Shown piece by piece: positions 1 through 61,250 of a DNA stretch of 64,000 nucleotides; the first letter of the stretch is position 1, and each line of letters starts with the position of its first letter. The notes under the pieces were generated by a model. It had not been told where the DNA came from and made no database searches. It saw only the letters and a list, made by a program, of their open reading frames with translations. This DNA is from an uncultured Tolumonas sp. (GTDB taxonomy: Bacteria; Pseudomonadota; Gammaproteobacteria; Enterobacterales; Aeromonadaceae): the NCBI RefSeq assembly GCF_963678185.1, contig NZ_OY782757.1, positions 3,800,501 to 3,864,500 on the forward strand, read 5' to 3'. Both the position numbers and the translations under genes were made by a program.

Positions 1-153
1 CAACCAAGGCACGATGATCCAAGAGAATAATCCGGCGAAAGCCCACGTGGTTTCCCACGACCATTTTTTTACTTTACTGATCGGTGCGTAAAAAGAAGCG
101 GCTGATGCAGCACCCACTAAGTGCCAACCGATACCCGATACAATTGCTGACAT
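1..153 (-). CDS. rhaT: L-rhamnose/H+ symporter RhaT (N-terminal part, cut by window edge)
   Basis: Reading the minus strand from the ATG at 153-151 gives 51 uninterrupted codons that run off the window start. The peptide begins [19 protein letters not shown] and continues through [17 protein letters not shown], closely resembling the start of E. coli RhaT, an inner-membrane sugar-proton symporter that imports L-rhamnose. A hydrophobic segment begins within the visible part. It lies downstream of rhaB and rhaA on the same strand, as expected for the transporter of this pathway. Only the first 51 residues are visible, so integrity of the rest cannot be judged. The family call is confident because of the near-identical charged loop KVKKWSWET. 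Confidence 0.85.
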
Positions 154-220
154 AGATATACTTCCAATTTAATTACTAGCTACAACGAATCTTAGAAGGG
201 GCTCTCTACATGAAAGCCCT

Positions 221-282
221 TCATCCCTTCCCACTTGAAGTTGCAGCGGTGTTGGCTGCAACTCCAAGTTGTTTGGGCATAA
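221..282. repeat. Short ERIC-derived hairpin between rhaA and rhaT
   Basis: This stretch keeps both ends of the ERIC-type repeat found three times elsewhere in the window but lacks roughly 65-70 internal bases. The arms ACTTGAAGTTGCAGC (233-247) and GCTGCAACTCCAAGT (255-269) pair with one mismatch around a 7-base loop, giving a strong hairpin. It sits in the 153-bp gap between the rhaA stop and the rhaT start, where it could attenuate or stabilise the rha transcript. That role is inferred. Confidence 0.75.
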
Positions 283-306
283 GATCAGCGTTTACACTGC
301 ATTGGC

Positions 307-1566
307 TTATTTGCGGGCAGATAACACTTCTGTTTCGTAGTTCTTCACGCTGGCCAGCCAATCGGCACCCACTGCAACACCATTCTTCGCACAGACGTAA
401 TCCCACACGGCTTGCCAAGGCAGGCTCTTGGTCTCTTCCATCAGAGCCAGACGGCTAGAGAAATCCCAGTTGTCTTCGGCATCACGCAGCGCTTGAGTTG
501 GCTCCAGCAATGCACGTAGCAGGGCTTTTTTCATGTTGCGAGTGCCAATGACCCACGCAGCAATACGGTTAATTGACGCATCAAAGAAATCGAGGCCGAT
601 GTGCACACGTTCCAGCAGATCATTGCGGATGATTTCAGTGGCGATAGCTTGTGTTTCATCATCCAGCAACACGACGTGGTCGCTGTCCCAACGCACAGGG
701 CGGCTGACGTGCAGCAGCAGGTGTTTGACATATAAAGAAGCCGCAGAGATCTTGTCGCTGATCACTTCTGTCGGGTGGAAGTGGCCGGCATCGAGACACA
801 GCGCCACGTTACGTGAGGCGGCGTAGCCCATGTAAAACTCGTTCGAACCAACGGTGTAAGATTCCGCACCGATACCGAACAATTTGCTTTCTACGGCATC
901 GATGTGATGTGCTTCATCGAATTTTTCGCTGATCACATCATCGAGTGCCGCCAATAGACGTTGACGTGGTGCTAGACGATCAGCCGGCAGATCTTTCATG
1001 CCATCTGGGATCCAGATATTCATGACCGACGCGGTGCCCAACTCTTTACCGAAATAGGCAGAAATACGACGGCTGGCTTTGCAGTGGTCGATCCAGAACT
1101 GACGCACTTTGGCATCCGGGTGCGACAAGGTCAGGCCGTCCGCACTCAGTGGGTGTGAGAAGCAGCTTGGGTTGAAATCCAGACCAATGCGCATTTTCTT
1201 GGCCCATTTCACCCAGTTTTCAAAATGCTCTGGTTTGATCTGGTCACGCGCAACAGGCTGTTCTGATTCCAAATAGATAGCATGCAGATTCAGACGTTTG
1301 GCGCCTGGAATTAACGACATCGCCAATTCCAAATCTTGGCGCAGTTCTTCGGCATTACGCGCTTTACCTGGGTAGTTACCGGTAGCCTGAATACCGCCGG
1401 TCAAAGCACCCGCACTGGCTTCAAAACCAGCAACATCATCGCCTTGCCAGCAGTGCATGGAGACAGGAATATTGTCCAGTGCACTGATGGCGGCATCGAC
1501 ATCAACACCGAGTTCAGCGAATTGTTGTTTAGCCAATACAAATGCGGCTTCAATATTTGGGTTCAT
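307..1566 (-). CDS. rhaA: L-rhamnose isomerase
   Basis: RhaA converts L-rhamnose to L-rhamnulose in the cytoplasm, the first step of rhamnose catabolism, as a metal-dependent TIM-barrel enzyme. The 419-residue product has the same length as E. coli RhaA and matches it over its whole length from memory, for example [12 protein letters not shown] near residue 33, [14 protein letters not shown], the metal-site region [14 protein letters not shown] and [17 protein letters not shown]. The frame is open further upstream, but the ATG at 1566 overlaps the rhaB stop as ATGA and starts at the conserved N-terminus, so this start was chosen. Translational coupling to rhaB is likely. An ERIC-derived hairpin follows the stop codon before rhaT. 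Confidence 0.96.
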
Positions 1567-3053
1567 GCTACTTCCTTTGTTTTTGCAGATTGTGATTGCG
1601 TTTTGGTGGAGCAAAGTTTCAAAAAACGCTGCCAATGAGTTTCTAATTGCGGAATGGAATTCGGTGTCAGGTGCTCACCGATAAAGTTGTGTTTGATCAC
1701 CGAGCGAATGGCTTTTAAATCAGCCAACACGCCCAGCCCTTTCAGTTGATAGGTGATGTTGCCCAGCGCTGATGCTTCAATCGGGCCGGTCACGATGTCG
1801 CGCTGGCAAATGTCGGCACATAAGCGATTGAGTAGTTGGTTTTTAGAGCCGCCACCCACGATATGAATGGTGTCGATAGGGCGACCAGAGACCTCTTCCA
1901 ACTCATCGATCACCACGCGGTAGAACAGCGCCAAACTGTCAAAAATGCAGCGGGCAATTTCGCTGGGCAGGGTCGGGCAGCCTTGGCGAGTCTCCAAGCA
2001 GAATGCTTGGATCTCTTTCTGCATTGAGGCTGGATTTAAGAAGCGTTCATCATTCGGGTTGATCAAATATTGGAATGGCGCGGCATCTTCGGCCAGTGTC
2101 GTCAGGTCGGCAAAACTCAAGTTGCTGAGCTCTTTTTGCAAACCTTGCAGCAACCATAGACCCATGACATTTTTTAAGATGCGGTAAGTGCGTTCAACAC
2201 CGCCTTCGTTGGTCAGGTTAGCGGCCAATGCCTCTTTCGAGGTCACTGGGTAGTGGCTTTCAATGCCCACCAACGACCAAGTGCCAGAGCTGATATACGC
2301 TGATTTTGAGCTGGTCAGTGGTGTCGCCACAATGGCCGAGCCGGTGTCGTGCGTTGCGGGTGGAATCACCGGCACGGCATGACCTGACGGGCTGATCCAT
2401 TTACCGATCACCGTGCCAGGTGGCGTGATGGGTTGCAGCCAATGGCGGGCTTGTTCAATGGCCGCGGTAATTTCAGCATCCCATTCTTTATTTTTCGCAT
2501 TCAGCATCTGCGTGGTGCTGGCATTGGTATATTCACAGCTGGTTTGGCCACACAAACGATAATGTAAATAATCTGGGATCAGTAATAATTTATCGACTTG
2601 TGGTAACCACGCAGGGTTTTCATTAATTAACGCCTGAATTTGATACAGCGTATTGAATTTTTGAAATTGAATGCCAGTGCGTTGATAAATTTCAGCACGG
2701 CTTACTTTTTTCATTACCTGTTCAGGTACATTATCAGTGCGACTATCACGATAGGCGACAGGTAAACCAAGCATTTCACCTTGCTTATCTAATAAAACAA
2801 AATCAACGCCCCATGAATCAATACCAATCGAGTTTAATTTAATACCGTCAGCGTCTATTTGATTTAAACCAAATAAAATATTCTGATAAATCGCTTCAAT
2901 ATCCCAGCAATCATGACCCTCTTTTTTAATCATGTTGTTCGGGAAGCGATGGATCTCTTTTAATTTAAGTAACTTTGCATCTTCCGTGTATTTGGCGAGC
3001 ATCACTCGACCGCTGGAAGCGCCGAGATCGATAGCTGCAATATTAATTGTCAT
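1563..3053 (-). CDS. rhaB: L-rhamnulokinase
   Basis: RhaB phosphorylates L-rhamnulose at O-1 with ATP, the second step of the pathway. The 496-residue protein is an FGGY-family sugar kinase: the N-terminal phosphate loop [14 protein letters not shown] (about residues 6-19), the substrate-domain segment [11 protein letters not shown] in the middle and the C-terminal ATP site [13 protein letters not shown]. coli RhaB is 489 residues. It is the first gene of the minus-strand rha transcript (rhaB-rhaA-rhaT), with a roughly 300-bp divergent control region shared with the AraC-type regulator. The rhamnulose-1-phosphate aldolase gene rhaD is not within the visible part and may lie beyond rhaT. Confidence 0.95.
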
Positions 3054-3120
3054 CGTGGCAACTCCATTAAATTAGATGCTGCCACTCTAAGTTTTCGACT
3101 GTCGAGAGACCTTTTTTTCT

Positions 3121-3147
3121 ATGCCACGATTAATTAATTCATGGCAT
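3121..3147. promoter_or_regulatory. Inverted repeat, candidate RhaS-type operator
   Basis: ATGCCA (3121-3126) and TGGCAT (3142-3147) form perfect 6-bp arms around an AT-rich, partly symmetric 15-bp centre. The centre lies about 80 bp upstream of the rhaB start, where an AraC-family activator would be expected to bind. Assignment to the neighbouring regulator is inference from position. A second small palindrome, TCGACTGTCGA at 3095-3105, lies in the rhaB leader. Confidence 0.4.
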
Positions 3148-3180
3148 AAAAATCAAGAAACCCTATACAGAGAATGGATT

Positions 3181-3196
3181 TGTGAACTAGGTCATA
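3181..3196. promoter_or_regulatory. Candidate CRP site in the rha control region
   Basis: TGTGA-N6-TCATA matches the cAMP-CRP consensus TGTGA-N6-TCACA at 9 of 10 defined bases. It lies between the divergent rhaB and regulator genes, consistent with catabolite control of rhamnose use. Confidence 0.45.
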
Positions 3197-3246
3197 TTTA
3201 TTTCTATAAATCTTAAAAACTGCCAAAAATTGGAGCAAAAATTTTT

Positions 3247-3262
3247 AGTGAAAATGATCACA
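3247..3262. promoter_or_regulatory. Second candidate CRP site in the rha control region
   Basis: AGTGA-N6-TCACA matches the CRP consensus at 9 of 10 defined bases. It lies about 90 bp upstream of the regulator start and 194 bp upstream of rhaB. Two sites in one divergent region resemble the CRP dependence known for E. coli rha promoters. Confidence 0.5.
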
Positions 3263-3350
3263 GCATTCTCTTTAGTCGTTTGACATTATAAGAAAATCTA
3301 ACCAATTTAACGCCTTGCGCCACGAGATAGCCACGTGGGCCGGAGGGAGC

Positions 3351-4178
3351 ATGCAAAAACTAAATCATTCAGAATTCTTCATTAATGATAGAATTATCAA
3401 TGTCTTGCCAAGAATTCCTCAAGAGCCATTTCCTGAGCATAGCCATGATTTTCATGAATTGGTGCTGGTAAAATCAGGCTGCGGTATTCATATCTGTGAT
3501 GGCAAGGCAACGCACGTTAGCAAAGGCAGTGTGCTTTATCTGAAAGATGAAGATGAATCACATTATTTTGATCAACTCGATAATCTTTGCCTGACCAATG
3601 TTTTGTTCATGCCTTCGGAATTAAATTCAAAAACATTACTCGAGCTATTAAATGAGTCATGTAGTTCTCAAACAGGACAGTTTGTTGTTCGCAATCAGAT
3701 CCAATGCCAAGCAGAGGCATTGCTTGAACAAATTAGTGCAGAGAATGAACGGAAAGACCAATATTCAAGATTAATGATAGAGACGTTACTATCACAACTG
3801 GCGATAACCTTTTCTCGCTCTAGAAAATTGAGTCAGTATGAAGAAAAAGAGGATATTGATAATCTGCATGCGTTAGTTAATTACATTAATGAACACTATC
3901 AATATGAAATTAATTGGTCGGACATGTCTGATAAATTTCGCATTCCATTACGAACCATGAATCGTAAGTTACAGGAATATACTGGTTTAACCCCGAATAA
4001 CTATTTGGGTCGTGTTCGTTTATGTCAGGCATCCTATTTTTTAAGTCACACGCAAGATGCTGTGACAGATATTGCATTTTCATGTGGATTTAACGACAGT
4101 AATTATTTCTCCAGTAAATTCCATCAGGCATTTAATGTCACACCAATGCAATATCGTAAACGTTATAAATTATCTTGA
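3351..4178 (+). CDS. rhaS: AraC-family rhamnose regulator, RhaS-like
   Basis: Transcriptional activator predicted to bind L-rhamnose and switch on the rha genes. The 275-residue protein has an N-terminal cupin-type sensor region (PFPEHSHDFHELVLVKSG near residues 25-42, LCLTNVLF further on) and a C-terminal AraC double helix-turn-helix (about 180-275) with CGFNDSNYFSSKF and GLTPNNYLGRVRL. The pattern is nearer to E. coli RhaS (PEHHHDFHE, LCLTNVL) than to RhaR. E. coli has both regulators; only one is seen here. The frame opens 12 codons earlier, but the ATG at 3351 has a strong GGAGGGAG ribosome site and aligns with the family N-terminus. Divergent from rhaB; the alcohol dehydrogenase gene follows on the same strand. 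Confidence 0.85.
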   Translation: MQKLNHSEFFINDRIINVLPRIPQEPFPEHSHDFHELVLVKSGCGIHICDGKATHVSKGSVLYLKDEDESHYFDQLDNLCLTNVLFMPSELNSKTLLELLNESCSSQTGQFVVRNQIQCQAEALLEQISAENERKDQYSRLMIETLLSQLAITFSRSRKLSQYEEKEDIDNLHALVNYINEHYQYEINWSDMSDKFRIPLRTMNRKLQEYTGLTPNNYLGRVRLCQASYFLSHTQDAVTDIAFSCGFNDSNYFSSKFHQAFNVTPMQYRKRYKLS

Positions 4179-4282
4179 AAAAATAGCCATAAAAATTTTT
4201 TGAATGGCTAATTAATTAAGGTCTACCAGAGTTTTAAATTTTAGCATATCCCTATTAAACACATGGAAATAGGAACTCTGCT

Positions 4283-5434
4283 ATGGCCTTTGCACTTTGT
4301 TTACCTCAAATCAGCCTCTCTGGTGAAAATGCGTTACTTGATCTCGTGTCTCACTTGGTCAATAAATCGATCCGTCGTCCTCTGATCGTCACCGAGCAAG
4401 CCCTGCTCAAAATCGGTCTGTTAGATGGTTTAATCAGCTCATTGCGTGATGCGGGTTTTTCCCCTGTTCTGTTTGATGGTGTGTTGGCAAACCCAACGGA
4501 TAAAGTCGCAGATGCTGCTTTTGCTGCTTATCAACAGGAAAAATGTGATTTTCTGATTGGTTTTGGTGGTGGCAGTGCGATGGATACCGCGAAAGCGGTG
4601 CGTGCAATGGTCGCCAACCCTGATAAAGCCATTTATGACTTTGAAGGTATCGGTAAAGTCAGCAAAGTAGGGCCATTCTTGGTCTGTGTCAGCACCACCT
4701 CGGGTACCGCTGCCGAAGTCACCAGCAATGCGGTGATCACCGACACGCGTCGTAAAGTGAAAATGGTCATCATCGATAGCGCTTTGATCCCTGATATTGC
4801 GGTGAATGATCCATTGCTGATGTTGGGTTTACCTGCGGCAGTCACCGCGGCAACCGGCATGGATGCATTGACGCACGCAGTTGAAGCTTATGTTTCTATC
4901 GGCGCACATCCATTGACTGATCACTCAGCGTTAGCGGCTATCAGCTTGATCAGCGAATATCTGCCTCGTGCCGTAGCCAATGGTAAAGACATTAAAGCAC
5001 GTGAAATGATGGCGCATGGCCAGTTCCTGGCTGGTATGGCGTTCAACAGTGCAGGCTTGGGTTATGTGCATTCGCTGGCGCATCAGCCGGGCGCTACGCA
5101 CAATTTGCCACACGGTGTCTGTAATGCGATCATTCTGCCTGTCGTGTGTGAATTTAATTTAGAAGTAAAAGAAGCACGCTTTGCAGAAATTGCTGCTGCG
5201 ATGGGTGTTGACACACATAACATGACTGTTCCTGCAGCCGCGAAAGCAGCGATTGGTGCGATCCGTGCACTCTCTGAAACGGTAGGTATTCCAGCTGGTT
5301 TGAGTGCACTCGGTATTCAACAATCAGATTTAGCGGGCTGGGTTGATGCTGCACAAGCTGATCCATGTTCCGGCTGTGCACCGCGTATTGCGTCTAAAGA
5401 AGAGTTGCTGGCGTTATATCAGGCGGCTTTCTAA
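4283..5434 (+). CDS. fucO: Iron-containing alcohol dehydrogenase, probable lactaldehyde reductase
   Basis: Group III (iron-dependent) alcohol dehydrogenase, 383 residues. In this setting it probably reduces L-lactaldehyde, the product of rhamnulose-1-phosphate cleavage, to 1,2-propanediol with NADH. NAD-binding GFGGGSAMD is at about 93-101. The metal ligands are Asp194 and His198 (TGMDALTHAVEAY) plus His263 and His277 (YVHSLAHQPG...LPHGVCN), with His267 at the catalytic position. From memory the sequence is at least as close to YiaY / AdhB-type enzymes as to FucO, so the substrate is inferred from the rhamnose context. It is separated by 104 bp from the regulator gene. A strong terminator follows. 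Confidence 0.75.
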   Translation: MAFALCLPQISLSGENALLDLVSHLVNKSIRRPLIVTEQALLKIGLLDGLISSLRDAGFSPVLFDGVLANPTDKVADAAFAAYQQEKCDFLIGFGGGSAMDTAKAVRAMVANPDKAIYDFEGIGKVSKVGPFLVCVSTTSGTAAEVTSNAVITDTRRKVKMVIIDSALIPDIAVNDPLLMLGLPAAVTAATGMDALTHAVEAYVSIGAHPLTDHSALAAISLISEYLPRAVANGKDIKAREMMAHGQFLAGMAFNSAGLGYVHSLAHQPGATHNLPHGVCNAIILPVVCEFNLEVKEARFAEIAAAMGVDTHNMTVPAAAKAAIGAIRALSETVGIPAGLSALGIQQSDLAGWVDAAQADPCSGCAPRIASKEELLALYQAAF

Positions 5435-5478
5435 TTTAAGCGTTATTCCCATTTGCTGTTCACCCCAAATGACAGACA

Positions 5479-5514
5479 CCAGACAGTAAGATTTACTGTC
5501 TGGTTTTTTATTTT
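5479..5514 (+). terminator. Rho-independent terminator after the alcohol dehydrogenase
   Basis: The perfect 11-bp stem CCAGACAGTAA / TTACTGTCTGG with a 3-base loop is followed by TTTTTTATTTT, 45 bp after the stop codon. Confidence 0.9.
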
Positions 5515-5520
5515 GCGCAA

Positions 5521-5543
5521 TAAAAAGCCCGCGATTGCGGGCT
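5521..5543 (-). terminator. Rho-independent terminator for the small minus-strand gene
   Basis: A 7-bp stem AGCCCGC / GCGGGCT with loop AATC is followed on the minus strand by TTTTTA, 40 bp after the stop of the 63-residue gene. Together with the plus-strand terminator it insulates two convergent genes. Confidence 0.8.
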
Positions 5544-5582
5544 GAAGAAATGTTGTAATCCGGCTCTGGATTTAAGGCAGTT

Positions 5583-5774
5583 TTAGATTTCAGGTAAACT
5601 GTCACGCCAGCCGTGAAATTCACTGATGGCGTTAGATACCATCTGCTCTTCCCTTACACCAAACGGATAGCCACTTTGTACGCACATCTTTTTGGCTTCT
5701 TGGTAAGGTGAGTTGTAGCCCTCGAGGGTGTCGAATACGTGGGATTTGATCCGGGTATAGTCAACTCTTTGCAT
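5583..5774 (-). CDS. Small protein of unknown function (63 aa)
   Basis: I do not recognise this protein. It starts MQRVDYTRIKSHVFDTLEGY and ends HGWRDSLPEI. It is soluble-looking, with no signal peptide or membrane segment, one Cys and several aromatic residues. The frame extends 14 codons further upstream to 5816, but the ATG at 5774 has an AGAGGAAG ribosome site at good spacing and is preferred. A strong dedicated terminator on its 3' side and a repeat-rich 230-bp upstream region support it being a real, separately regulated gene. Upstream on the same strand lies the second lon gene, with its own hairpin between them. Confidence 0.6.
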   Translation of the reverse strand: MQRVDYTRIKSHVFDTLEGYNSPYQEAKKMCVQSGYPFGVREEQMVSNAISEFHGWRDSLPEI

Positions 5775-5832
5775 GGCCGCTCTTCCTCTTGCAGTAAGTA
5801 CCGTTAAATTTGACAATACTTGAAATAAAAAA

Positions 5833-5935
5833 GTTCATTGAACAAACAGAAAAAACGCCCCAATAGGGTACTAATGAACAACTCTAGAGAAAAAACAGAG
5901 CTATATGGGAAATACTTGTTCATTTTGTGAACAAG
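5833..5935. promoter_or_regulatory. Cluster of GTTCA/TGAAC inverted repeats
   Basis: Three elements share the pentamer GTTCA or its complement: GTTCA-T-TGAAC (5833-5843), a lone TGAAC (5875-5879) and the 8-bp-armed CTTGTTCA-N5-TGAACAAG (5915-5935). They lie 60-160 bp upstream of the 63-residue gene. This looks like a set of operator sites for an unidentified dimeric regulator. Confidence 0.4.
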
Positions 5936-5971
5936 ATCGTTGCTGAATCGAGACACATTGTTTAAGGCGAA

Positions 5972-5997
5972 AGAGCAGCGATAACGATCGCTGCTCT
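5972..5997 (-). terminator. Hairpin after the second lon gene
   Basis: The perfect 11-bp stem AGAGCAGCGAT / ATCGCTGCTCT with a 4-base loop begins 7 bp after the lon-like stop codon. The following minus-strand bases (TTCGCCTT) are only weakly T-rich, so it may act partly as a processing barrier. Confidence 0.6.
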
Positions 5998-6003
5998 GGT
6001 CGA

Positions 6004-8394
6004 TTATTGCACAGGAAAAAGCAGTTTTGCGACGTCACGGAACTGACTGGCAAAGTGGAATGTGACGCCTTCTTTCACATATTCCGGTAGTTCTTCCACA
6101 TCCCCCTGATTGGCTTCCGGCACGATGATTTGGTGAATACCGAGTCGTTTGGCGGCAATGACTTTTTCGCGAACCCCGCCAATGGCCAGAACATGCCCCG
6201 TCAACGTTAATTCACCGGTGATGGCAAAGCCCTTCACTGGCGCCCGGTTTAACGCCAAAGAGAGCAGGGCGCTGGCCATTGTGATACCTGCACTGGGCCC
6301 ATCTTTGGGCGTTGCCCCTTCTGGCACATGCAGGTGAATGGCGGCGCGGTCATAAAACTGCGGATCAGCTCCCAGCTCGCGTAAATGGCTGCTGATAAAG
6401 CTATAGGCCAGCTCTGCGGACTCTCTCATCACATCGCCTAACTGGCCGGTTAGTTTAAAACTCCGGCCTTGTTGGTGAACAACACTGGCTTCTATCGGCA
6501 AGGTGGCACCACCGAGAGATGTCCATGCCAAGCCGGTGATAATGCCCACACCGCTCAGATTTTTCTCTTTACGGAATACTGGGCTGCCCAAATAATGTTC
6601 TAGTCCGCTGGCTTTGACATTGATCTCTTTGGCATCTTCGTTTAGCAGTTCAACGACAGATTTACGCACAATTTTCGCCAGCTGTTTTTCCAAATTACGT
6701 ACACCGGCTTCACGGGCATACCCATTGATGATGCCTTTTATGGCCGCATCGGTGATCTTTAGTTTGCCGTTAGGAACTCCCGCATGTTCCAACTGGCGTG
6801 GCCAGAGATGATGACGGGCAATAGCCAGTTTTTCTTCTGCCAAATAACCGGATAGGCGGATGGTATCCATACGGTCTAATAGCGGTGTCGGGATCGAATC
6901 GAGCGTATTTGCTGTGCAGATAAACAAGCATTTTGACAGATCCAGACGCAAATCAAGATAGTGGTCGAGGAAGTTAATGTTTTGCTCAGGGTCGAGTGTT
7001 TCCAGCAATGCAGAGGCCGGATCGCCCTGATGGCTGATGCCGATCTTATCGATTTCATCCAGCATAATGACTGGGTTCATCACCTGACACTCTTTTAATG
7101 CCTGCACAATTTTGCCCGGCATTGCACCAATATAGGTGCGGCGATGGCCTTTGATCTCGGCTTCATCGCGCATACCACCCACACTAAAGCGGAAGAACGG
7201 GCGATCTAAGCTGTTGGCAATCGAATGACCAATCGAGGTTTTACCCACACCAGGTGGGCCAACCAGCAGCATAATGGCGCCACTGATGGCATTTTTATAC
7301 GCACCCACCGCCAGAAATTCGATGATGCGATCTTTCACATCATTCAGGCCATCATGGTCTTGGTCTAAGATTTTACGCGCCTTTTTCAAATCGATGCGCT
7401 GCTCTTTTTCAACGCCCCACGGTACTTGGCTGATCCAGTCGAGATAGTTTCGCGTTACCGCATATTCCGGCGATCCGGTTTCTAGAATTTGCAGTTTTTT
7501 CAGCTCTTCATCAAAACGACTCTGTACGGTTGGTGGTATTTTTTTATCTTTCATCCGGGCATGAAAACTTTCCACTTCCGCCGTTTTATCGTCTTTTTCT
7601 AAGCCTAATTCTTTTTGGATCACTTTTAGTTGTTCATGCAAAAAGAATTCGCGTTGTCGTTCACTGATGGTTTTGTTTACTTCCTCACGGATCTGCGTTT
7701 GCAGCTTGGCAACCTCAATCTCTTTTTTCAGGATCGCCAGCGACTTTTTCATGCGTGGGATCAACAGCGAGGTGTCCAGCACCTCTTGTAATTCTTCGGC
7801 ACTGGCTGTGGTGATGGCAGCAGCTAAATCAGCCAGAGGGGAAGGATCATTCGGGCTGAAACGGTTCATATAGTGCTTCAGCTCTTCGCTGTATAGCGGG
7901 TTGATCGGCAGCAGTTCTTTCAAAGCGCCGATCAGTGCCATGGCATAGGCTTTGATTTCAGTTTCTGATTCAGATTGGTCATTTTCCATATAGCGGACTT
8001 CGACCAGATAGGGTGGTTTGTCTGTAAGCCAATTAACAATTTCAACTCGTTGAACCCCTTCTGCCACGAATTGGATCTCGCCTTCACCACTGCTGGCTTG
8101 CAAAATGCGCACGGCACAGCCGGTTTTAGGAACGATATCTTTTAGCGGAATGGCATCGCTGACGTCGTCGCCAATTCTGAACAATGCGACCATTTTATGG
8201 GCTGTTCGGGCGACACGTTCAATAGTTTTGCCCCAAGGGTTAGCCTGAATTTGTACCGGTAAAACTTGTGCCGGCAGGAAAGGGCGACCTTGAATGGGAA
8301 GAATGTAAAGCTGAGCTGGTCGTTCCTGACCAGGGACGATCAGTCCGGTTTTAGGATGTTCTTCTATCACTGGTGATTCTTTTTCAATGCTCAT
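6004..8394 (-). CDS. Second ATP-dependent Lon protease (LonA-type paralogue)
   Basis: Cytoplasmic AAA+ serine protease, about 796 residues, with the complete LonA order: N-terminal substrate-binding domain (about 25-215), coiled linker with ISERQREFFLHEQLK, AAA+ module with Walker [10 protein letters not shown] (about 380) and Walker B VIMLDEIDK (about 442-450), and protease domain with catalytic Ser in PKDGPSAGI (about 701) and Lys in VREKVIAAK (about 744). It is clearly different from the classical lon at 31803 in the same window, so the organism has two LonA enzymes. The frame also opens at a GTG three codons earlier (8403); the ATG at 8394 is preferred. It lies next to the ycgB-yeaH-yeaG operon but is separated from it by a terminator. 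Confidence 0.92.
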   Translation of the reverse strand: MSIEKESPVIEEHPKTGLIVPGQERPAQLYILPIQGRPFLPAQVLPVQIQANPWGKTIERVARTAHKMVALFRIGDDVSDAIPLKDIVPKTGCAVRILQASSGEGEIQFVAEGVQRVEIVNWLTDKPPYLVEVRYMENDQSESETEIKAYAMALIGALKELLPINPLYSEELKHYMNRFSPNDPSPLADLAAAITTASAEELQEVLDTSLLIPRMKKSLAILKKEIEVAKLQTQIREEVNKTISERQREFFLHEQLKVIQKELGLEKDDKTAEVESFHARMKDKKIPPTVQSRFDEELKKLQILETGSPEYAVTRNYLDWISQVPWGVEKEQRIDLKKARKILDQDHDGLNDVKDRIIEFLAVGAYKNAISGAIMLLVGPPGVGKTSIGHSIANSLDRPFFRFSVGGMRDEAEIKGHRRTYIGAMPGKIVQALKECQVMNPVIMLDEIDKIGISHQGDPASALLETLDPEQNINFLDHYLDLRLDLSKCLFICTANTLDSIPTPLLDRMDTIRLSGYLAEEKLAIARHHLWPRQLEHAGVPNGKLKITDAAIKGIINGYAREAGVRNLEKQLAKIVRKSVVELLNEDAKEINVKASGLEHYLGSPVFRKEKNLSGVGIITGLAWTSLGGATLPIEASVVHQQGRSFKLTGQLGDVMRESAELAYSFISSHLRELGADPQFYDRAAIHLHVPEGATPKDGPSAGITMASALLSLALNRAPVKGFAITGELTLTGHVLAIGGVREKVIAAKRLGIHQIIVPEANQGDVEELPEYVKEGVTFHFASQFRDVAKLLFPVQ

Positions 8395-19966: not shown

Positions 19967-20094
19967 TATACCCAAAGTAATTGGAATTGCGGCTAGGCGA
20001 CAAGTGAACGAATCCCCATGAGCATAGATAAACTATGTGATTGGGGTGAGTGAGCGTAGTCAACAACGCCGCAACTTCAAGTACAAAGGGTATA
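19967..20094. repeat. ERIC (intergenic repeat unit), full-length copy
   Basis: A 128-bp imperfect palindrome beginning TATACCCAAAGTAATTGGAA and ending GTACAAAGGGTATA, with the central core of CCCCATGAGCATAGAT and ATGTGATTGGGGTGAG. This matches the ERIC/IRU family of enteric bacteria and vibrios. It lies between the slp stop and the thiC promoter and is inverted relative to the copies at 45940 and 61121. Confidence 0.9.
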
Positions 20095-20115
20095 TCAGCA
20101 ATTGTTATCTGATTG

Positions 20116-40719: not shown

Positions 40720-41190
40720 ATGACCACAATCAGTTATTTTCTTTCTCCAGTCGGATATTTTCGTTTAGAGGCTGATAATGATGGATTGCAGTCACTGCTG
40801 TTAAATTGCCCGCCAGCTGATGAGTTGGCGGTGCTTGCTCCTTCGCATCCAGTTCTTATCTTAGCGCATCAGCAATTACAGGAATATTTTTCTGGTTCTC
40901 GTCATGACTTCACTGTGCCATTAGCAATGACCGGCACGGAGTTTCAATTAGCCGCCTGGCATGCATTACAAACTATCCCTTATGGTCAAACGCTCAGTTA
41001 TAAAGCAGTTGCTGAGCAGATAGGCAGACCAAAAGCGATGCGGGCTGTGGGAATGGCAAATAATAGGAACCCAATTGCTATCATCGTTCCATGTCATCGC
41101 GTGATTGGTGCTAATGGCCAATTAGTCGGTTTTGGCGGCGGCTTGGGTATGAAGCAATGGTTGCTTGAGCATGAAAAAACTCATCGTTAA
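40720..41190 (+). CDS. ogt: Methylated-DNA--protein-cysteine methyltransferase
   Basis: A 156-residue suicide repair protein that transfers the methyl group from O6-methylguanine (and O4-methylthymine) in DNA to its own cysteine. The acceptor Cys125 lies in IIVPCHRVIG; the DNA-binding helix-turn-helix region with the Arg finger is RPKAMRAVGMANNRNP. The N-terminal half is the short Ogt-like domain and lacks the Ada regulatory zinc domain. It lies 17 bp after purT, so cotranscription is likely. Confidence 0.93.
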   Translation: MTTISYFLSPVGYFRLEADNDGLQSLLLNCPPADELAVLAPSHPVLILAHQQLQEYFSGSRHDFTVPLAMTGTEFQLAAWHALQTIPYGQTLSYKAVAEQIGRPKAMRAVGMANNRNPIAIIVPCHRVIGANGQLVGFGGGLGMKQWLLEHEKTHR

Positions 41191-41348
41191 AGCCTGAATC
41201 TGCCTTCCTTGTTACGTTTATTTTCACTTCTTCTTGCGCGTCCCTGCTAATTCATTTGTGTTGCTTGATGGTTAAATATCAGTGGCATAAATGTTTCAAG
41301 TTCTTTACAACTTGTCAGTTATATAATTAACTAAATAGATAATAGTAT

Positions 41349-41378
41349 CCAACCGGGATAGTTATATCCCTCGGTTGG
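41349..41378. repeat. Inverted repeat upstream of the chemoreceptor gene
   Basis: CCAACCG-GGATA and TATCC-CTCGGTTGG form a stem with a small bulge around GTTA, 29 bp before the chemoreceptor start, followed by a good GGGAGAG site. It may be a leader hairpin or an operator. The rest of the 216-bp gap after ogt shows no gene and no clear promoter. Confidence 0.45.
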
Positions 41379-41406
41379 TTAATAGCTATACAGGGAGAGT
41401 ACTGGG

Positions 41407-43386
41407 ATGTTCAACCATTTGAAGTTGAAAATAAAGCTTATTGCTTTATTGATACCGTTATTACTCGGTTTGCTGATTTATTCAATGGTTTTGCTCAATG
41501 ACCGTTGGCATCAACAGCATGATGCGGCGTTGGTTGTTGAACGAATGCATTTATTGAAAGAAGCCAGCAGTCTGGTGCATGAACTACAAAAAGAACGAGG
41601 GATGACCTCAGGGTTTCTTGCATCGAAAGGGTTGCAGTTTGGTGATGCGCTAAAAGTGCAACGCGAAAAAAGTGAGGCACAACTCAAACAATACATGAAT
41701 TATCTAGCGCAGCATAAAACAAAAATGTCGGCGGTAGACCTTATTGGTCGGGATGTGGCAACAGCACAAAGTCGATTAGATATGTTGCCTTCTCAGCGTC
41801 AACAAGTAGATAGTCAAAGTATTAAACCTACGGAAGCGATCGTCTTCTATTCTGACTTGATAAAAACACTTTTAGCAATAACGTCATCTATCAATATCGA
41901 TAATACCAATGCCGCTATTTCTCCTGATTTATCGGCTTATTATTACTTCTTGCAGGCTAAAGAGCGGGCAGGTATTGAACGGGCTTTGGTTAATGGGGCG
42001 TTCTCTGCTGGCCAGGTATCCGCAGATGTTTTCCAGCGCATCATCCGTATTATTTCTGAACAGACGTTATTTTTCGATCTGTTTAAGGTTTATGCAACGC
42101 CACAACAGCAAAACTTATTCAGTCAGACAGAACAATCAGCTGTATTTGGACAAGTTCAGCAATTTCGTAATTATGTTTATGCCAATGATTATCAGCATAA
42201 TGCGGCAGAATGGTTCCAGATATCCACTAAGCGAATTGATGAGTTAAAGACACTCGAAAATAAACTTAATGCGTTAATTATTGATATATCACAGTCTGAT
42301 TATCAGCGGAATCTACAGTCGTTTTATTTCATTTTGATTGCCACAATTATATTGATTATCAGTGGTGTAGGTTTCACATTTTTGGTTATCCGAAATATTG
42401 ACAGCAAAGTTCAGGCCTTAATGACGGCAATGAATAATGCATCGAAAAACCGCGAATTATCGGTTCGGATACCCGTTACCAGTAGAGATGAGCTGGGCTC
42501 TGTTGCTGATGCGTTCAATCTTATGCTGGATGCATTCCAGCAGGCGGTGAATGATATTCGTAATGCCAGCACGACATTGTCAGATGTTTCTCAGAACACA
42601 TCTGACACAGTGAATCAAAATGCCAAGTTATTAGATATGCAAAAACAAGAAGTTTTACAGGTGGTTTCTGCTATTGAGGAGATGAGTGCATCGATTAATG
42701 AAGTTGCTCATAACATTAATCTCACTTCTCAGGCTGCTAATGAAACTGACACGAAAGTCAGTCATATCGCAGAACAGATCGATTTATCAGATAAAACCAT
42801 TGCTGATGTGGCACAAAGTTTGACCGATATGGGGCTTGATGTAAAAGCACTGCATGAGAATAGTGGGCATATTGGTGAGGTGATCAATGTGATTAAAAAC
42901 ATTGCTGAACAGACCAATTTATTAGCCTTAAATGCGGCCATTGAGGCAGCGAGAGCTGGGGAAATGGGGAGAGGTTTTGCCGTGGTTGCTGATGAAGTTC
43001 GTTCTTTAGCATCTCGTACTCAGCAGTCGACCGGTGAAATAGAAAAGATGGTGACGCAATTTCAGCAAAATGCGGCATCTGTTTATGATGCAATGAATGT
43101 CAGCCAAAACCGTGCAGTTAAAAGCGTAGAGCAATCGGGAATGGTGCAGGCTTCATTACAACAGATCTTGTTGGCGATTCGCGACATCAAGGATAGAGCA
43201 ACTCAAATTGCTACTGCGGCTGAGGAACAGGCTGCCGTTTCGAATGAAATAACAAAAAGTGTTTCCAGTATTGGGGACAGTGCTCAGCAATCTGCAGAAG
43301 GTAGCCATGAAATGGCAAAAGCGGGTGAACATCAGGCTAAATTAGCCAGAGACTTGAGCGATATTGCGCGGAGTTTCAGAACCTGA
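41407..43386 (+). CDS. Methyl-accepting chemotaxis protein with NIT-type sensor domain
   Basis: A 659-residue transmembrane chemoreceptor. The order is: TM1 (about 10-28), periplasmic helical sensor (about 35-295) with the nitrate/nitrite-sensor (NIT) signature [22 protein letters not shown]2 (about 305-327), HAMP (about 328-385) and a cytoplasmic signalling coiled coil. The conserved hairpin tip [19 protein letters not shown] is near residue 500. No CheR/CheB-binding pentapeptide is seen at the C-terminus, which ends IARSFRT. The NIT domain suggests, but does not prove, response to nitrate or nitrite. It is monocistronic, converging on asnS across a shared terminator. Confidence 0.9.
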
Positions 43387-43389
43387 AGA

Positions 43390-43415
43390 AATGGCCGGGA
43401 GACCGGCCATTTTTA
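43390..43415. terminator. Bidirectional terminator between the chemoreceptor gene and asnS
   Basis: A perfect 8-bp stem ATGGCCGG / CCGGCCAT with a 4-base loop lies between two convergent genes. The plus side has a TTTTTAT tail. The minus side has TTCTTC. Confidence 0.85.
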
Positions 43416-43445
43416 TCGAGAGTTTACTGTTACTGACAGTAAATC

Positions 43446-45939: not shown

Positions 45940-46064
45940 ATACCCTTCGTACTTGAAGTTACAGCATCGTTGACGGTGTTCTCTCACCCCAATCACATAG
46001 CTATCTATGCTCATGGGGATTCGCTCACTTGTCGCCTTGCTGCAATTCCAATTACTTTGGGTAT
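45940..46064. repeat. ERIC (intergenic repeat unit), full-length copy
   Basis: A 125-bp imperfect palindrome from ATACCCTTCGTACTTGAAGT to ATTACTTTGGGTAT with the ERIC core (CTCACCCCAATCACATAG, then CATGGGGATTCGCTCACTTG). It lies between the glycosidase stop and the minus-strand terminator, so it is probably transcribed as the 3' tail of that mRNA. Confidence 0.9.
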
Positions 46065-46097
46065 AAACAGGACGGCATTGCGCCGCCCTTGGAGCAA

Positions 46098-47549: not shown

Positions 47550-48557
47550 GTGTTAGTTGAACAAAGCATGTTGGCGTTGTTGCATACCTTTGAAGTCTCG
47601 GCGCGTCACTTAAGTTTTACTAAAGCTGCGGAAGAGCTTTACCTAACACAAGGTGCTATCAGCCAGCGTATTCGACGTTTGGAAGAGTTGCTGAAATTCA
47701 AACTGTTTATTCGCCTGACGCGCAAGTTAGTCCTAACGCCGGAAGGGGAACAGTTACTACTGGCATTGACCAGCTCACTGCAACAGATCACGGAAGTGAT
47801 AGAAGATATCCGCTTTAATGAATTGCGCGGCATGCTGTGTATTGGCTTGCCTCCCGCATTTGGCCAGTTATGGCTGATGCCTCGATTAACCAGCTTTAAA
47901 ACGGCTTTTCGTTCGTTAGATCTACTGTTTTATGGTCAGCATGGTTTACCCAACTTTGAGGCCGAGCCGGTCGATATGGCGGTCTATTACGGCAATGCCA
48001 GTCTGCCGCATTTACATTCCTGGACGTTGTTGGAAGAGTGGTTGGTGCCAGTCTGTAGCCCGGAATATGCTGCCAGCCATGGCTTACTTAGCAAAGATAA
48101 GACGGATTTACGCCAATGCTCGCTGTTGCACTGCACTGAATCTCTGGAACAATTTGAATTTGGTTATGAATGGCAACACTGGAGCCAATCTACCGGGGTG
48201 GTATTACCGCACAGTAATCGGAAATATGTTTTTAACCAGCATGCGATGGCACTTGAAGCGGCTAAACACGGCATGGGTCTGGCGATGGGGCGCTGGTTTC
48301 TGGTAATGCCGGCGGTGTTGCGGGGTGAGTTGGTGATACCGGTAGATTACAAGATCCCGTCCGGTATGGGGTATCAGTTGTATTGTTCACGGGAACATGT
48401 GCAACGCCCGCGTTATCAGGCGTTTGCACAATGGTTACAACGGACTATTGATGAATGGCAGGAAATAAAAGAAGCGTCGTTGTCAGCAGAGCACCCTTTT
48501 ATTTATTCAGGCCATGCTATCGAGCCCGACGCCGATTGCTTTTGTGAGCCGACTTAA
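47550..48557 (+). CDS. LysR-family transcriptional regulator (GcvA/DsdC-like)
   Basis: A 335-residue regulator with an N-terminal winged helix-turn-helix (about 8-67: [20 protein letters not shown], then [16 protein letters not shown]) and a C-terminal periplasmic-binding-like effector domain (about 95-300). The helix pattern is that of the GcvA/DsdC branch. It starts at a GTG with AGGGGA at good spacing; an ATG at 47568 is an alternative. It is divergent from the GH4 gene, a possible target. It is about 30 residues longer than usual, and the tail runs 51 bp into the 3' end of convergent bioA. Confidence 0.88.
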
Positions 48558-49822: not shown

Positions 49823-49880
49823 TTTAACGGGCAGACATAGACTATCCAAATAAATTCCGTCATTGAGTGCAGAGAACCCC

Positions 49881-55693: not shown

Positions 55694-57433
55694 ATGAGTG
55701 GAGATTCGTTTAAATATAAAAAATACCGAAATTACCTGATTGCTGGCAGTCTGTTTTTGGGCTGTATTTCGGCTGCGTTGGCGAAGCCCGTTGTCTATGA
55801 TATTCGCGGCGTTAAAGGCGAATCACTGAATAATGTGCGTTATTATCTTGCGGCATTACCCGCCATTGATAGCCAGAAAGCCGAAGGCCGGGCTAAGAAA
55901 ATTGAGCTGGCAGTCCGACAAGCTATGCAGGCAATTGGTTATTATTCCCCGCGGATCAATTTCACTTACCCGTCAGAAAAAAGTAATAGCCTTCAAATAC
56001 AAATTGAAGCAGGCAAGCCGGTGTTAGTTCGTCAACTTCAGGTCGAATTAGAAGGTGATGCTCAGAAAGATGCTGACTTCCTGAAGATTTTATCGTCGAT
56101 GGATTTAAGTATTGGCGATGCGATGCATCACGGTAAATATGAAAATATCAAACGTCGGTTAAAAACACTGGCGGCTACCCACGGCTATTTTGATGCCAAG
56201 ATGGAAAAAGCTGACGTTCAACTCTATCCCAATGATCGGGCGGCTGATATTCATATCATTTTCAACAGCGGCCACCGCTATCGTTTTGGTGCGATTACGG
56301 TGGATGGTATTGCACAAACGAGTGTGATCCAGCCGTTGTTTCATTTTAAACAAGGCGATTTTTACGATACGCGGAAATTGGCCGAACTCAGCCAAGCATT
56401 ATCGCAAACCCGCTATTTTCAGGTGGTCGATGTTCACCCGCAAATGACAGACAGCAGCGATTTTGTGATCCCGGTAATCGTGCATTTAGAGAAGAAAAAG
56501 CCGAATCAAATGGAAACGGGTATCGGCTTTTCGACCGATGAAGGCCCTCGGGTACAGTGGAACTGGGAACGTCCGTGGGTAAATGATGACGGGCACCGTT
56601 TTTCCTCACAGATCAAGGTGGCACAAACCACACAAACTGTTGATTTCAGCTACCGCATTCCCAATAAAAATCCGATTGATGATTATTATCAGCTGCAGAC
56701 CACCTATGCCAATGTGGATCAGGCAGATACTCGCTCGCAGAAAATTGAGACGGGGTTACATTACTGGACAACGTTGCTGGGACGATGGCAACGAGATTAT
56801 TTTTTTAAGACGGCGTATGAAAAATATGAACAAGGTGAAGATACCGGCAATAGTTTGTTATTCATGCCCGGCGCTTCCATTACCCGCGTCCGCAGTCAGG
56901 GCGGGATAGATCCGTATTGGGGCGATCAGCAGACTGTTTCTGTGATGTTTTCTGATCCTACCTGGGGTTCAGATACGCGTTTTGTGAAAGTGTGGGGGCG
57001 CACCAAATGGCTACGGACTTATGCCAGTAAACATCGCTTCATCTTCCGCGCTGAACAAGGTGCTTTGTTATGGGGAAACCTGAATGAGATCCCGGCATCG
57101 CAGCGTTTTTTTACGGGGGGGGATCAAACGGTACGTGGTTTTGGTTATGACAGTATCTCGCCATTGGACTCTTCCGGTAAGCTTTCCGGTGCGTTGAATG
57201 TCAGTGCGGGGAGTCTGGAATATAACTATCAGATCGCACCGAAGTGGCGAATAGCGACTTTTGTTGATGCGGGTACCGCAACGAATGACTACAAAGATCC
57301 TTGGAAAATTGGGACTGGTGTGGGTGGACGTTGGTTAACTCCGGTTGGACAATTACGATTTGATTTAGCTTTTGGTGTATCAGAGCAACAGGTGCCATTC
57401 CGGTTACATTTTGCATTGGGGCCTGAGTTATGA
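55694..57433 (+). CDS. tamA: Outer membrane translocation and assembly protein TamA
   Basis: Omp85-family outer-membrane protein that works with TamB in assembly or lipid transport at the outer membrane. It has 579 residues (E. coli 577). A signal peptide runs to about residue 30 (GCISAALAKP), followed by three POTRA domains (about 32-270) and a C-terminal 16-strand barrel. The Omp85 signature includes RFFTGGDQTVRGFGYDSISP near residue 480 and GVGGRWLTPVGQLRFDLAF at the end. Its stop overlaps the tamB start as ATGA, the normal tamA-tamB arrangement. Confidence 0.95.
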   Translation: MSGDSFKYKKYRNYLIAGSLFLGCISAALAKPVVYDIRGVKGESLNNVRYYLAALPAIDSQKAEGRAKKIELAVRQAMQAIGYYSPRINFTYPSEKSNSLQIQIEAGKPVLVRQLQVELEGDAQKDADFLKILSSMDLSIGDAMHHGKYENIKRRLKTLAATHGYFDAKMEKADVQLYPNDRAADIHIIFNSGHRYRFGAITVDGIAQTSVIQPLFHFKQGDFYDTRKLAELSQALSQTRYFQVVDVHPQMTDSSDFVIPVIVHLEKKKPNQMETGIGFSTDEGPRVQWNWERPWVNDDGHRFSSQIKVAQTTQTVDFSYRIPNKNPIDDYYQLQTTYANVDQADTRSQKIETGLHYWTTLLGRWQRDYFFKTAYEKYEQGEDTGNSLLFMPGASITRVRSQGGIDPYWGDQQTVSVMFSDPTWGSDTRFVKVWGRTKWLRTYASKHRFIFRAEQGALLWGNLNEIPASQRFFTGGDQTVRGFGYDSISPLDSSGKLSGALNVSAGSLEYNYQIAPKWRIATFVDAGTATNDYKDPWKIGTGVGGRWLTPVGQLRFDLAFGVSEQQVPFRLHFALGPEL

Positions 57434-57723
57434 GTCTGAGAAGTCGACGCTGGGTTGCTTCTTCCATCTTGTTGATGGCCTTCTTAGTAGCGATCGTATT
57501 TTTTCTGCTTTTCTCTGCATTTGGCAGCCAATTGGTATGGAATCAGTTAGTCCGAGTCGTACCGGGTCTGAAAGGCGAGTTAGTTGCAGGTTCTCTGGCT
57601 GATGGTTGGCAAGTGCATGATTTGCAATGGCAAAACAAAGAAGTCACCGTTTCGCTAAAACAAGGTCAGCACAATGGAAACTGGCCTCTTTGCTGGCCGG
57701 CGAGGTTGAGATTAATTCACTGA
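57430..57723 (+). pseudogene. tamB: tamB, 5' fragment upstream of an apparent frameshift
   Basis: The true TamB start: ATG overlapping the tamA stop, a basic N-terminus, one membrane anchor (SSILLMAFLVAIVFFLLFSAF, about 11-31), then the family-like ELVAGSLADGWQVHDLQWQN. The frame stays TamB-like to about codon 80 (VTVSLKQGQ) and then turns into an unrelated 16-residue tail ending at 57723. The expected continuation, QWKLASLLAGEVEINSLIVD, is present in another frame starting at 57671. Adding one base between 57670 and 57671 would restore a single frame of about 1229 residues. Confidence 0.85.
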
Positions 57724-60700
57724 TAGTCGATGGTTTGACTGTTACTCGTCGGGATGTTGTTGAGCCTGCGGCAACACCAACAGTTGTGGCTCCCAATGCC
57801 TATATTGCAACGCAGCTGCCTATTGTATTACATCAACTGCAATTATCAGATTTTACCTATGATGATCCGGTGGTTAGAGTCAAACTTCAACAGTTGGCGA
57901 CTGCGGCGGAATGGCAGGCGCATCGCATTACTATTAACTCTTCGCAATCAGAAACTGTCGATGTGTGGTTAAAACCAAGCGTACCTGCAAAGCCGTCTGC
58001 TAAAACAGAAAAAACTAAAGCGACAGGCTCAGAATTACCGGAAGTGTTTGTGCCATTTGATATTAATTTGGCGCAATTAGACTTAAAAAATGGGCGCTAC
58101 CACCAGCAAGATTTTGATACTGGTCTGTTAGATATCGGCTTGCAGGCACGTTTTGATGGTACCGCGCTGACAGTGCAGAAACTAGCAGTTAAACAAGAAA
58201 AGCGTAGCGTTGAACTATCCGGCAAGATGACTTTTATTCAACACTATTTGTTGGACGCCACCTTAAAAGCGCAGGCTGCTTTACCCGTTATATCGCCGGA
58301 AACAGCACGAGTGCTTACTCTTGCAATAAAAGGTGATTTGCAGCAATTAACGTTTAATGCTGGGCTGGACGGAAAAGAAAAGCTCCAGTTACAAGGCAAA
58401 CTGAAACCACTGACGGACCATTTACCCTTTGAGCTGACGGGCGACTGGTTACAATTGCCATTACCCGCATCATTAGCTGGCTTATCGGTAGAAAAAGGCA
58501 AACTTGATTTACATGGGTCATTAACGAACTACCAGTTCAATCTGGAAAGTAAGGGTAAATGGCTTGATTTACCGTCAACCCGTTTGCAGTTAGCGTTGCG
58601 AGGCACAACCGAAAAACTGGAATTGCAGCGGCTGCAACTGGGTGATGGTGTGAATCAACTGGAAGTGGCGGGTCAGTTAAGTTGGCAAAAAGGATTGCAC
58701 TGGCAGGGACAATCGCAGCTGCAATTACCGGAAGTCAACCGCTGGTTACCAGATACCAAAGCGAGTGTTTCAGGTGGACTAAAACAGGAATTGCATTGGC
58801 AGGATGATCATTGGCAAGGCAATGTATCGAATATCGATTTGAAAGGTAAATGGAATGGTTTTCCATTAACAACTCAAGGTGCTATTCGTGGTGATGAGCA
58901 GGGCAATTGGCAATTCCAACAAATAGCGATTGAAAATGGCCCAAATACTTTGACGCTAAACGGTAAATTAGACAAACAGTGGTCATTAGCCGGTAAACTG
59001 CGTGCGCAAAAACTATCCGCGATTAACTCACAATGGGATGGCGGTGTCGATGGTGATTTTCGTCTGAATGGCCCAGCGAAAGCGCCCGTCTTAGCGTTGC
59101 GATTGGCTGCGGCACGGATGGTCATGCCGGGGCAACTTATCCGTGATCTTGAAGTAACGGGGCATGCCACACTCAACCAAAGTCTACCGGGGCAACTACA
59201 GCTACACGCCAATCGCTGGAATATTAATGGTACACGCTTACAAAATGTCGCGCTTTCCGTGAATGGCGATGTTCGGCAACATCAGCTAAAACTAGCTGCC
59301 AGTGGTAAACAGCTAAATGGCAGTGTTTTTCTGACCGGCGGTTGGCAAAAAAATAGCTGGCAAGGGCAATTTAAAGAGGGTGTCATCGGCGGCTTATTGG
59401 GCGAATGGACGCTTCGTTCTCCCGTTGCTTTGCAGTGGAAAAATAGTTCCTTCAGCTTCAAATCGCATTGCTGGAGTTCGTCGTCGTCGCAACTTTGTTT
59501 TGCCGACTCAACGATGTCAGCATCTCGCGGCAAAATCCCATTTACGCTGGCCGAGTTTGATACGCAACGCCTTAAGCCTTGGTTTCCTGATGCGTTAGAC
59601 TGGCAGAGTGCTTTACAAGCCAATGGTGTTTTAGGGTGGAACGCTCATTCTCCGGATCTGTCGGTAACCTTGCACAGCCAACAAGGTGAATTGATCACTG
59701 ATCAAATCCACACACCCTATCGGGATCTGTTGCTGCAAGTTGATGTGACGTCAAAATCAGCGCAAATGAAGTTTGTGCTCGATTCTGAAATGCTTGGAAA
59801 TATTAACGTGACAGCTCAAGTAGCTGATCCGTTAAAACGCCGGCAACTCAGTGGCACTGTGAATCTGACAAATTTGCAGTTGTATGGTGTGGCTCCGCTG
59901 ATCGATGCCTTGCACAGCACAAAAGGCACCGTCGATATCGACGGCCGACTGGCCGGTACACTCGATGCACCATTATTTTACGGTCAGGCTCGGCTGAAAG
60001 ATGGTGAAGTGGATACGGAAACGGAAATGCTAAGCCTACGCCAGATCAATGGCACATTAGCGATTAATGGCGATCAAGCTGAATTGAATGCCAGCCTGCT
60101 CGCTGGCAAGGGATCTGCCACCTTGACAGGCCATACCCGCTGGCCCGGTGGTGTGCCTTCAGGCGTGTTGTCCTTACGTGGTAAGGAAATGGAACTGGCT
60201 TTTGCCGGTTATGGTAACGGCAGAGTCGATTCTGATCTGCAATTACAATTTGATGCAGAGCAAGTCTCACTAAATGGCAATATTGTTGTGCCATGGGCCC
60301 GAATTGATATCAAAAGCCTGCCCGAAAATGGCATTGAACTATCAGATGATGTGCATGTCGTTCGGCCGCTGCAACAACAAGATCGCCCTGCACCATTTCC
60401 TTTTTTTATGAATGTTGATCTTAGCTTAGGCTCCGATGTTCAGTTTAGTGCGATGGGCCTGAAAACGGCGCTGGGCGGCGGCTTACGTTTTCGCCAGAAA
60501 CCAAGGCAGAACCTGATGACGCAAGGTGAAATTCGTCTGGTCAACGGCCGCTTTAAGGCTTATGGGCAGAATCTGGTGATCCGCAGCGGTAAGCTAATGT
60601 TTAATGGTGATGTAACGGAGCCTTATGTTATGGCGGAAGCTATTCGTGATCCATCGACGATGGAAGACAGCAGTGTCACCGTTGGGGTGAAAATTAACTC

Positions 60701-61120: not shown

Positions 61121-61250
61121 ATATACCCTTCGTACTTGAAGTTGCAGCGTCGTTGACGGCGTTCTCTCACCCCAATCACATAGCCTATCTATGCTCATGG
61201 GGATTCGTTCACTTGTCGCCTTGCTGTAACTCCAATTACTTTGGGTATAG
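61121..61250. repeat. ERIC (intergenic repeat unit), full-length copy
   Basis: About 130 bp from ATATACCCTTCGTACTTGAA to TTACTTTGGGTATAG with the ERIC core. It begins 3 bp after the tamB stop and ends 10 bp before the stop of the convergent PAS-GGDEF-EAL gene, filling the whole gap. No other terminator is visible there, so it may end both transcripts. Confidence 0.9.

Follow-up and report, generated by a model that had tools for sequence, protein, structure and literature searches.

TamB of the translocation and assembly module sits in the inner membrane by means of an N-terminal signal anchor (PMC5719984, PMC4494059), and its function requires TamA (PMC8593681). E. coli can grow with YhdP, TamB or YdbH as the only one of the three, and cells without both TamB and YdbH grow while YhdP is expressed (PMC8593681). 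In Deinococcus radiodurans BAA-816, the annotated DR_1460, DR1461 and DR_1462 have been merged into one TamB homologue of 4,002 amino acids (PMC11219805). Between the sequences of BAA-816 and 13939K the same paper reports five insertions of one base, which may be errors or differences between strains. In the accessible portion of PMC13274458, TamB appears only in a proteome table and the frameshifts concern other genes.

The window analysed here, a stretch of 64,000 nucleotides from a Tolumonas genome (G000), carries tamB in two open reading frames, ORF1 and ORF2 (see the table). ORF1 encodes 97 amino acids and closes with a stop codon at 57721-57723, and ORF2 opens with an ATG at 57627 and runs for 1163 codons in a frame that differs from that of ORF1. 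Against the NCBIfam profile NF047952 (TamB, 1240 positions), ORF1 scores 39.5 bits, far below the whole-protein cut-off, and ORF2 scores 954.6 bits (cut-off 825); jointly they cover positions 2 to 1240. Because the match to this profile splits into 2-76 and 76-1240, ORF1 and ORF2 are one tamB gene cut near profile position 76. Two collinear parts of one family profile in direct succession are far more than chance would give, and the division of the profile between different frames bears out the sequence-only reading, which had called tamB frame-split. Pfam TamB (PF04357) is matched only at the C-terminus of ORF2, and the maximum of the 19-residue Kyte-Doolittle hydropathy is 2.99 in ORF1 vs 1.24 in ORF2; the N-terminal signal anchor (ORF1) and the C-terminal domain (ORF2) thus lie on separate polypeptides. 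In 8 of the 10 other same-genus (Tolumonas-like) genomes tamB is a single open frame of 1229-1262 amino acids, and by that length anchor and C-terminal domain share one polypeptide. The adjoining tamA is intact and the frame downstream of the break is clean, with no stop over its 1163 codons, both as previously claimed.

Features of the tamB locus, in positions of the window.
Feature	Start	End	Strand	Basis
tamA, intact; stop codon overlaps the tamB ATG at 57430	55694	57433	+	NF047950, 662.9 bits
ORF1: TamB N-terminus with hydrophobic signal anchor (about residues 13-31), short out-of-frame tail, stop	57430	57723	+	Frame, profile 2-76, hydropathy
Stretch open in both frames, sole possible ribosome crossing from ORF1 to ORF2	57621	57720	+	Longest homopolymer 4, no slippery heptamer
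ORF2: rest of TamB, first 14 codons out of the TamB frame, without membrane anchor	57627	61118	+	Frame, PF04357, profile 76-1240, hydropathy
Zone of one missing base vs intact relatives, exact place ambiguous	57668	57674	+	Alignments

Multiple alignment shows that the window is one base shorter than all six usable same-genus relatives (seven were entered, and L008, on the wrong strand, was left out), confirming the earlier suggestion of one missing base. Pairwise blastn places the gap at 57668/57669 (G005), 57669/57670 (G009) or 57673/57674 (G007), a spread within which the previously proposed site, 57670/57671, falls. Across the family, 68 of 75 genomes have tamB in a single frame over the whole length of the profile. 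The seven exceptions are the window's genome, four genomes in which tamB lies on different contigs or runs into a contig end (G003, G008, G058 and G076) and two split records, G012 and G020. G003 and G008, with tamB in contig fragments, are also the remaining two of the ten genus genomes. The complete-looking G012 has tamB in three frames or pieces on one contig (G012:C1:1386588-1390254; L029, L156, L157), and G020, a genome that is 65% complete, has it in two pieces on one contig. Both break elsewhere in the gene, neither near profile position 76. Furthermore, a search of 60 kb of G012 matched 15 queries, and 2 of these, both of them other genes, likewise fall in two frames, which suggests that G012 is an indel-rich assembly and its record suspect. 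A tamB break that recurs in the family was rejected on these grounds. Relatives sharing the two-frame arrangement at a conserved site, which the sequence-only reading had named as evidence against its view, were sought in the 75 family genomes, and none of the other 74 has a frame split at the window's tamB site.

ORF1 and ORF2 are both open over 57621-57720 and their frames could be joined by a -1 shift. Programmed -1 frameshifting, by ribosomal or transcriptional slippage, would then yield full-length TamB. However, a scan of the ORF1 frame over 57612-57720 revealed no X_XXY_YYZ slippery heptamer, in agreement with the first reading of the site, and no homopolymer longer than 4 is present in the overlap. 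Relatives with near-identical surroundings read straight through in one frame, the two other one-contig split records break elsewhere, and the 68 single-frame genomes of the family speak against a conserved two-frame arrangement. Programmed frameshifting at tamB has no support; we reject it and regard it as very improbable.

Likewise, the ATG at the start of ORF2 might point to a functional split, in which ORF1 would give a separate anchor peptide and ORF2 a separate bridge protein. Yet ORF2 has no hydrophobic anchor, TamB is held by its N-terminal signal anchor (PMC5719984, PMC4494059), and a split in the same place is absent from the other 74 family genomes. This scheme we consider the most improbable of all, and even taken jointly, recoding and functional split retain little more than a trace of probability.

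We compared changes private to the window's ORF2 with those of four sister copies, excluding a more distant fifth (G006). Over 1148 codons the window has 10 codons that differ non-synonymously, set against 43 synonymous changes; the corresponding ratios in the sisters are 6:49 (G005), 5:16 (G001), 5:25 (G009) and 19:85 (G010). For the 80 codons of the ORF1 part, the window's private changes number 1:4. No decay of ORF2 was seen in the form of further stops, indels or relaxed selection, its ratios being like those of the sisters; tamB here does not have the makeup of a decayed pseudogene. As no relaxed selection is visible, a real deletion would have to be very recent. Together with the intact relatives and the lack of a recoding signal, this supports the earlier proposal of an error or a very recent mutation: the window's tamB is otherwise healthy, and the one base missing from it is a single, non-programmed loss.

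As the most likely origin of the deletion we favour, with slightly better than even confidence, an indel error left in the deposited sequence, so that TamB would be normal in the living strain. The record would have lost one base at about 57668-57674, and the cell's tamB would stay in one frame. Consistent with an error, ORF2 evolves like an intact gene, tamB is intact in 8 of the 10 other genus genomes, and D. radiodurans offers a precedent of a tamB homologue split across ORFs in one record (PMC11219805). The neighbouring genes of the window are also whole: 39 of 43 G009 ORFs were matched and tamB alone was frame-split, in a comparison confined to the parts of the window with a counterpart in the fetched G009 DNA (outside it lie, for example, 1-6011 and 41178-43445). 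Two further indels, near ORF ends of the window, proved to do it no harm. At 49880 a single inserted base sits immediately ahead of an ATG, and at 48506 the 13 bases by which G009 differs affect just the terminal residues in G009, the window's 335 residues of that ORF being matched in full by G005.

The quality of the record was assessed in a wider sample, in which about 1.06 Mb of G000, a stretch that takes in the window, was compared with about 1.16 Mb of the relative G005, using ORFs of at least 100 amino acids. From G005 to G000, 202 of 1030 ORFs were matched (69,472 amino acids), with 2 frame splits and 6 internal stops; from G000 to G005, 202 of 852 were matched, with 1 split and 7 internal-stop cases. 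We put the low share of matches down to incomplete overlap between the regions sampled in the two genomes. The second split in G000 lies just upstream of a likely start codon, and the split in G005 concerns an ORF of 103 amino acids whose match, at 87%, is in a distant position. Among the 8 internal-stop cases inspected out of 13, 6 fall in the first 25 codons, 1 at codon 50 of 270 and 1 (in G005) 5 codons from the C-terminus; we judge the first 7 of these to be ORFs whose start was set too far upstream. On that view, no gene-body split other than tamB was found in G000 among the 202 matched ORFs of a sample compared with one relative. An error-rich record is thus unsupported in the sample, which weighs against record error, and one split in 202 matched ORFs fits an isolated error and an isolated mutation alike.

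The site itself also counts against an error. Indel errors of long reads usually fall in long homopolymers, and this site lies outside any. Counts of the words around the site in the same G000 and G005 samples gave ratios of 0.88-1.24 (5- to 7-mers) and 0.68-1.42 (8-mers). A sequence-specific error motif was rejected, as intact site words of 5 to 8 letters show no clear depletion in G000, and no systematic motif error is visible from these counts. Moreover, an isolated indel in a probably dispensable gene is also typical of a real mutation.

That the deletion is real and very recent, having arisen in nature or during laboratory passage with loss of the TamA-TamB bridge, is a substantial possibility, which we put somewhat short of even. 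ORF1 would then give a 97-residue anchored stub, ORF2, if translated, an anchorless cytosolic protein, and lipid transport would be left to YhdP alone. Since TamB is held in the membrane by an anchor that lies in ORF1 only, the ORF2 product would lack the portion required for entering and bridging the periplasm. The isolation of the break in a record that is clean in its sampled part is in keeping with a real loss, and so is the intact yhdP of the window's genome (1272 amino acids), given that E. coli grows with any one of the three bridges (PMC8593681). The single-frame TamB kept by 68 of the 75 family genomes, and the absence of visible relaxation of selection on ORF2, argue against it.

Profile searches detected YhdP in all 11 genus genomes. 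In the 70%-complete G008, of the same genus, yhdP was seen as two adjoining frames, matching profile 6-1018 and 1019-1224 (G008:C311:22129-25865). YdbH (PF11739), in contrast, was found in none of the 11 genus genomes, 7 of which reach 90% completeness with no more than 5% contamination, and the E. coli positive control was matched. In the family YdbH is patchy, occurring in 24 of 75 genomes and 2 of 5 genera: all 23 genomes of g2 and the single g3, with 0 of 37 in g4, 0 of 11 in g1 and 0 of 3 in g5. AsmA-type proteins are present, with two matches above the cut-off. Because YhdP is intact and one of the three bridges suffices in E. coli, the strain should survive a loss of TamB, if real, by relying on YhdP, but would have no third bridge to fall back on. 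We hold it possible, if rather unlikely, that the loss is real and that an isolate of a genus in which no YdbH was found is also without TamB, leaving YhdP as the sole long phospholipid bridge of the three known from E. coli. In that case yhdP is predicted to be essential in the window's strain, and the strain would be a natural test of TamB/YhdP/YdbH redundancy outside enterics, in a genus apparently endowed with two of the three.

Repeats and variable stretches were also observed in the window. A dispersed repeat of about 128 bases, predicted to form a long hairpin, lies directly after the tamB stop (61122-61249), and further copies are found in the window at 45940-46065 and, on the minus strand, at 19967-20096. 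Including the copy at the tamB end, the sampled stretch of G000 contains 6 full and 1 partial copies, and that of G005 contains 11 full and 1 partial. At the end of tamB, alignment to either G005 or G009 stops over the repeat, and the spacing is shorter in both. We presume it to be a small mobile repeat of MITE-like kind. Elsewhere in the window, about 2.3 kb at 41178-43445 with one long open frame is absent from the matching place in G009 and G007. About 180 bases of it have further matches at 70-80% in several parts of G000 and G005, a pattern like that of the signalling domains of chemotaxis receptors.

The finding is an ordinary one, and its main import is a correction note for one record, in which tamB as deposited would be annotated as broken. 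The locus resembles programmed -1 frameshift genes in its overlapping ORFs at a -1 offset, but differs in having neither a slippery heptamer nor conservation of the two frames in relatives. It is closer to two other kinds, the single-base frameshift pseudogene and the residual assembly indel, with which it shares a one-base loss, two collinear frames, intact sisters and the lack of a recoding signal; here, however, there is no further decay and no long homopolymer. With TamB of the translocation and assembly module (NF047952, PF04357) it has in common the coverage of profile positions 2 to 1240 and a tamA that adjoins and overlaps, although its frame is broken after about codon 80. The TamB homologue of D. 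radiodurans is likewise spread over several ORFs in one record through one-base differences; several such differences affect that gene of 4,002 amino acids, whereas a single one affects the gene of about 1229 codons described here (PMC11219805).
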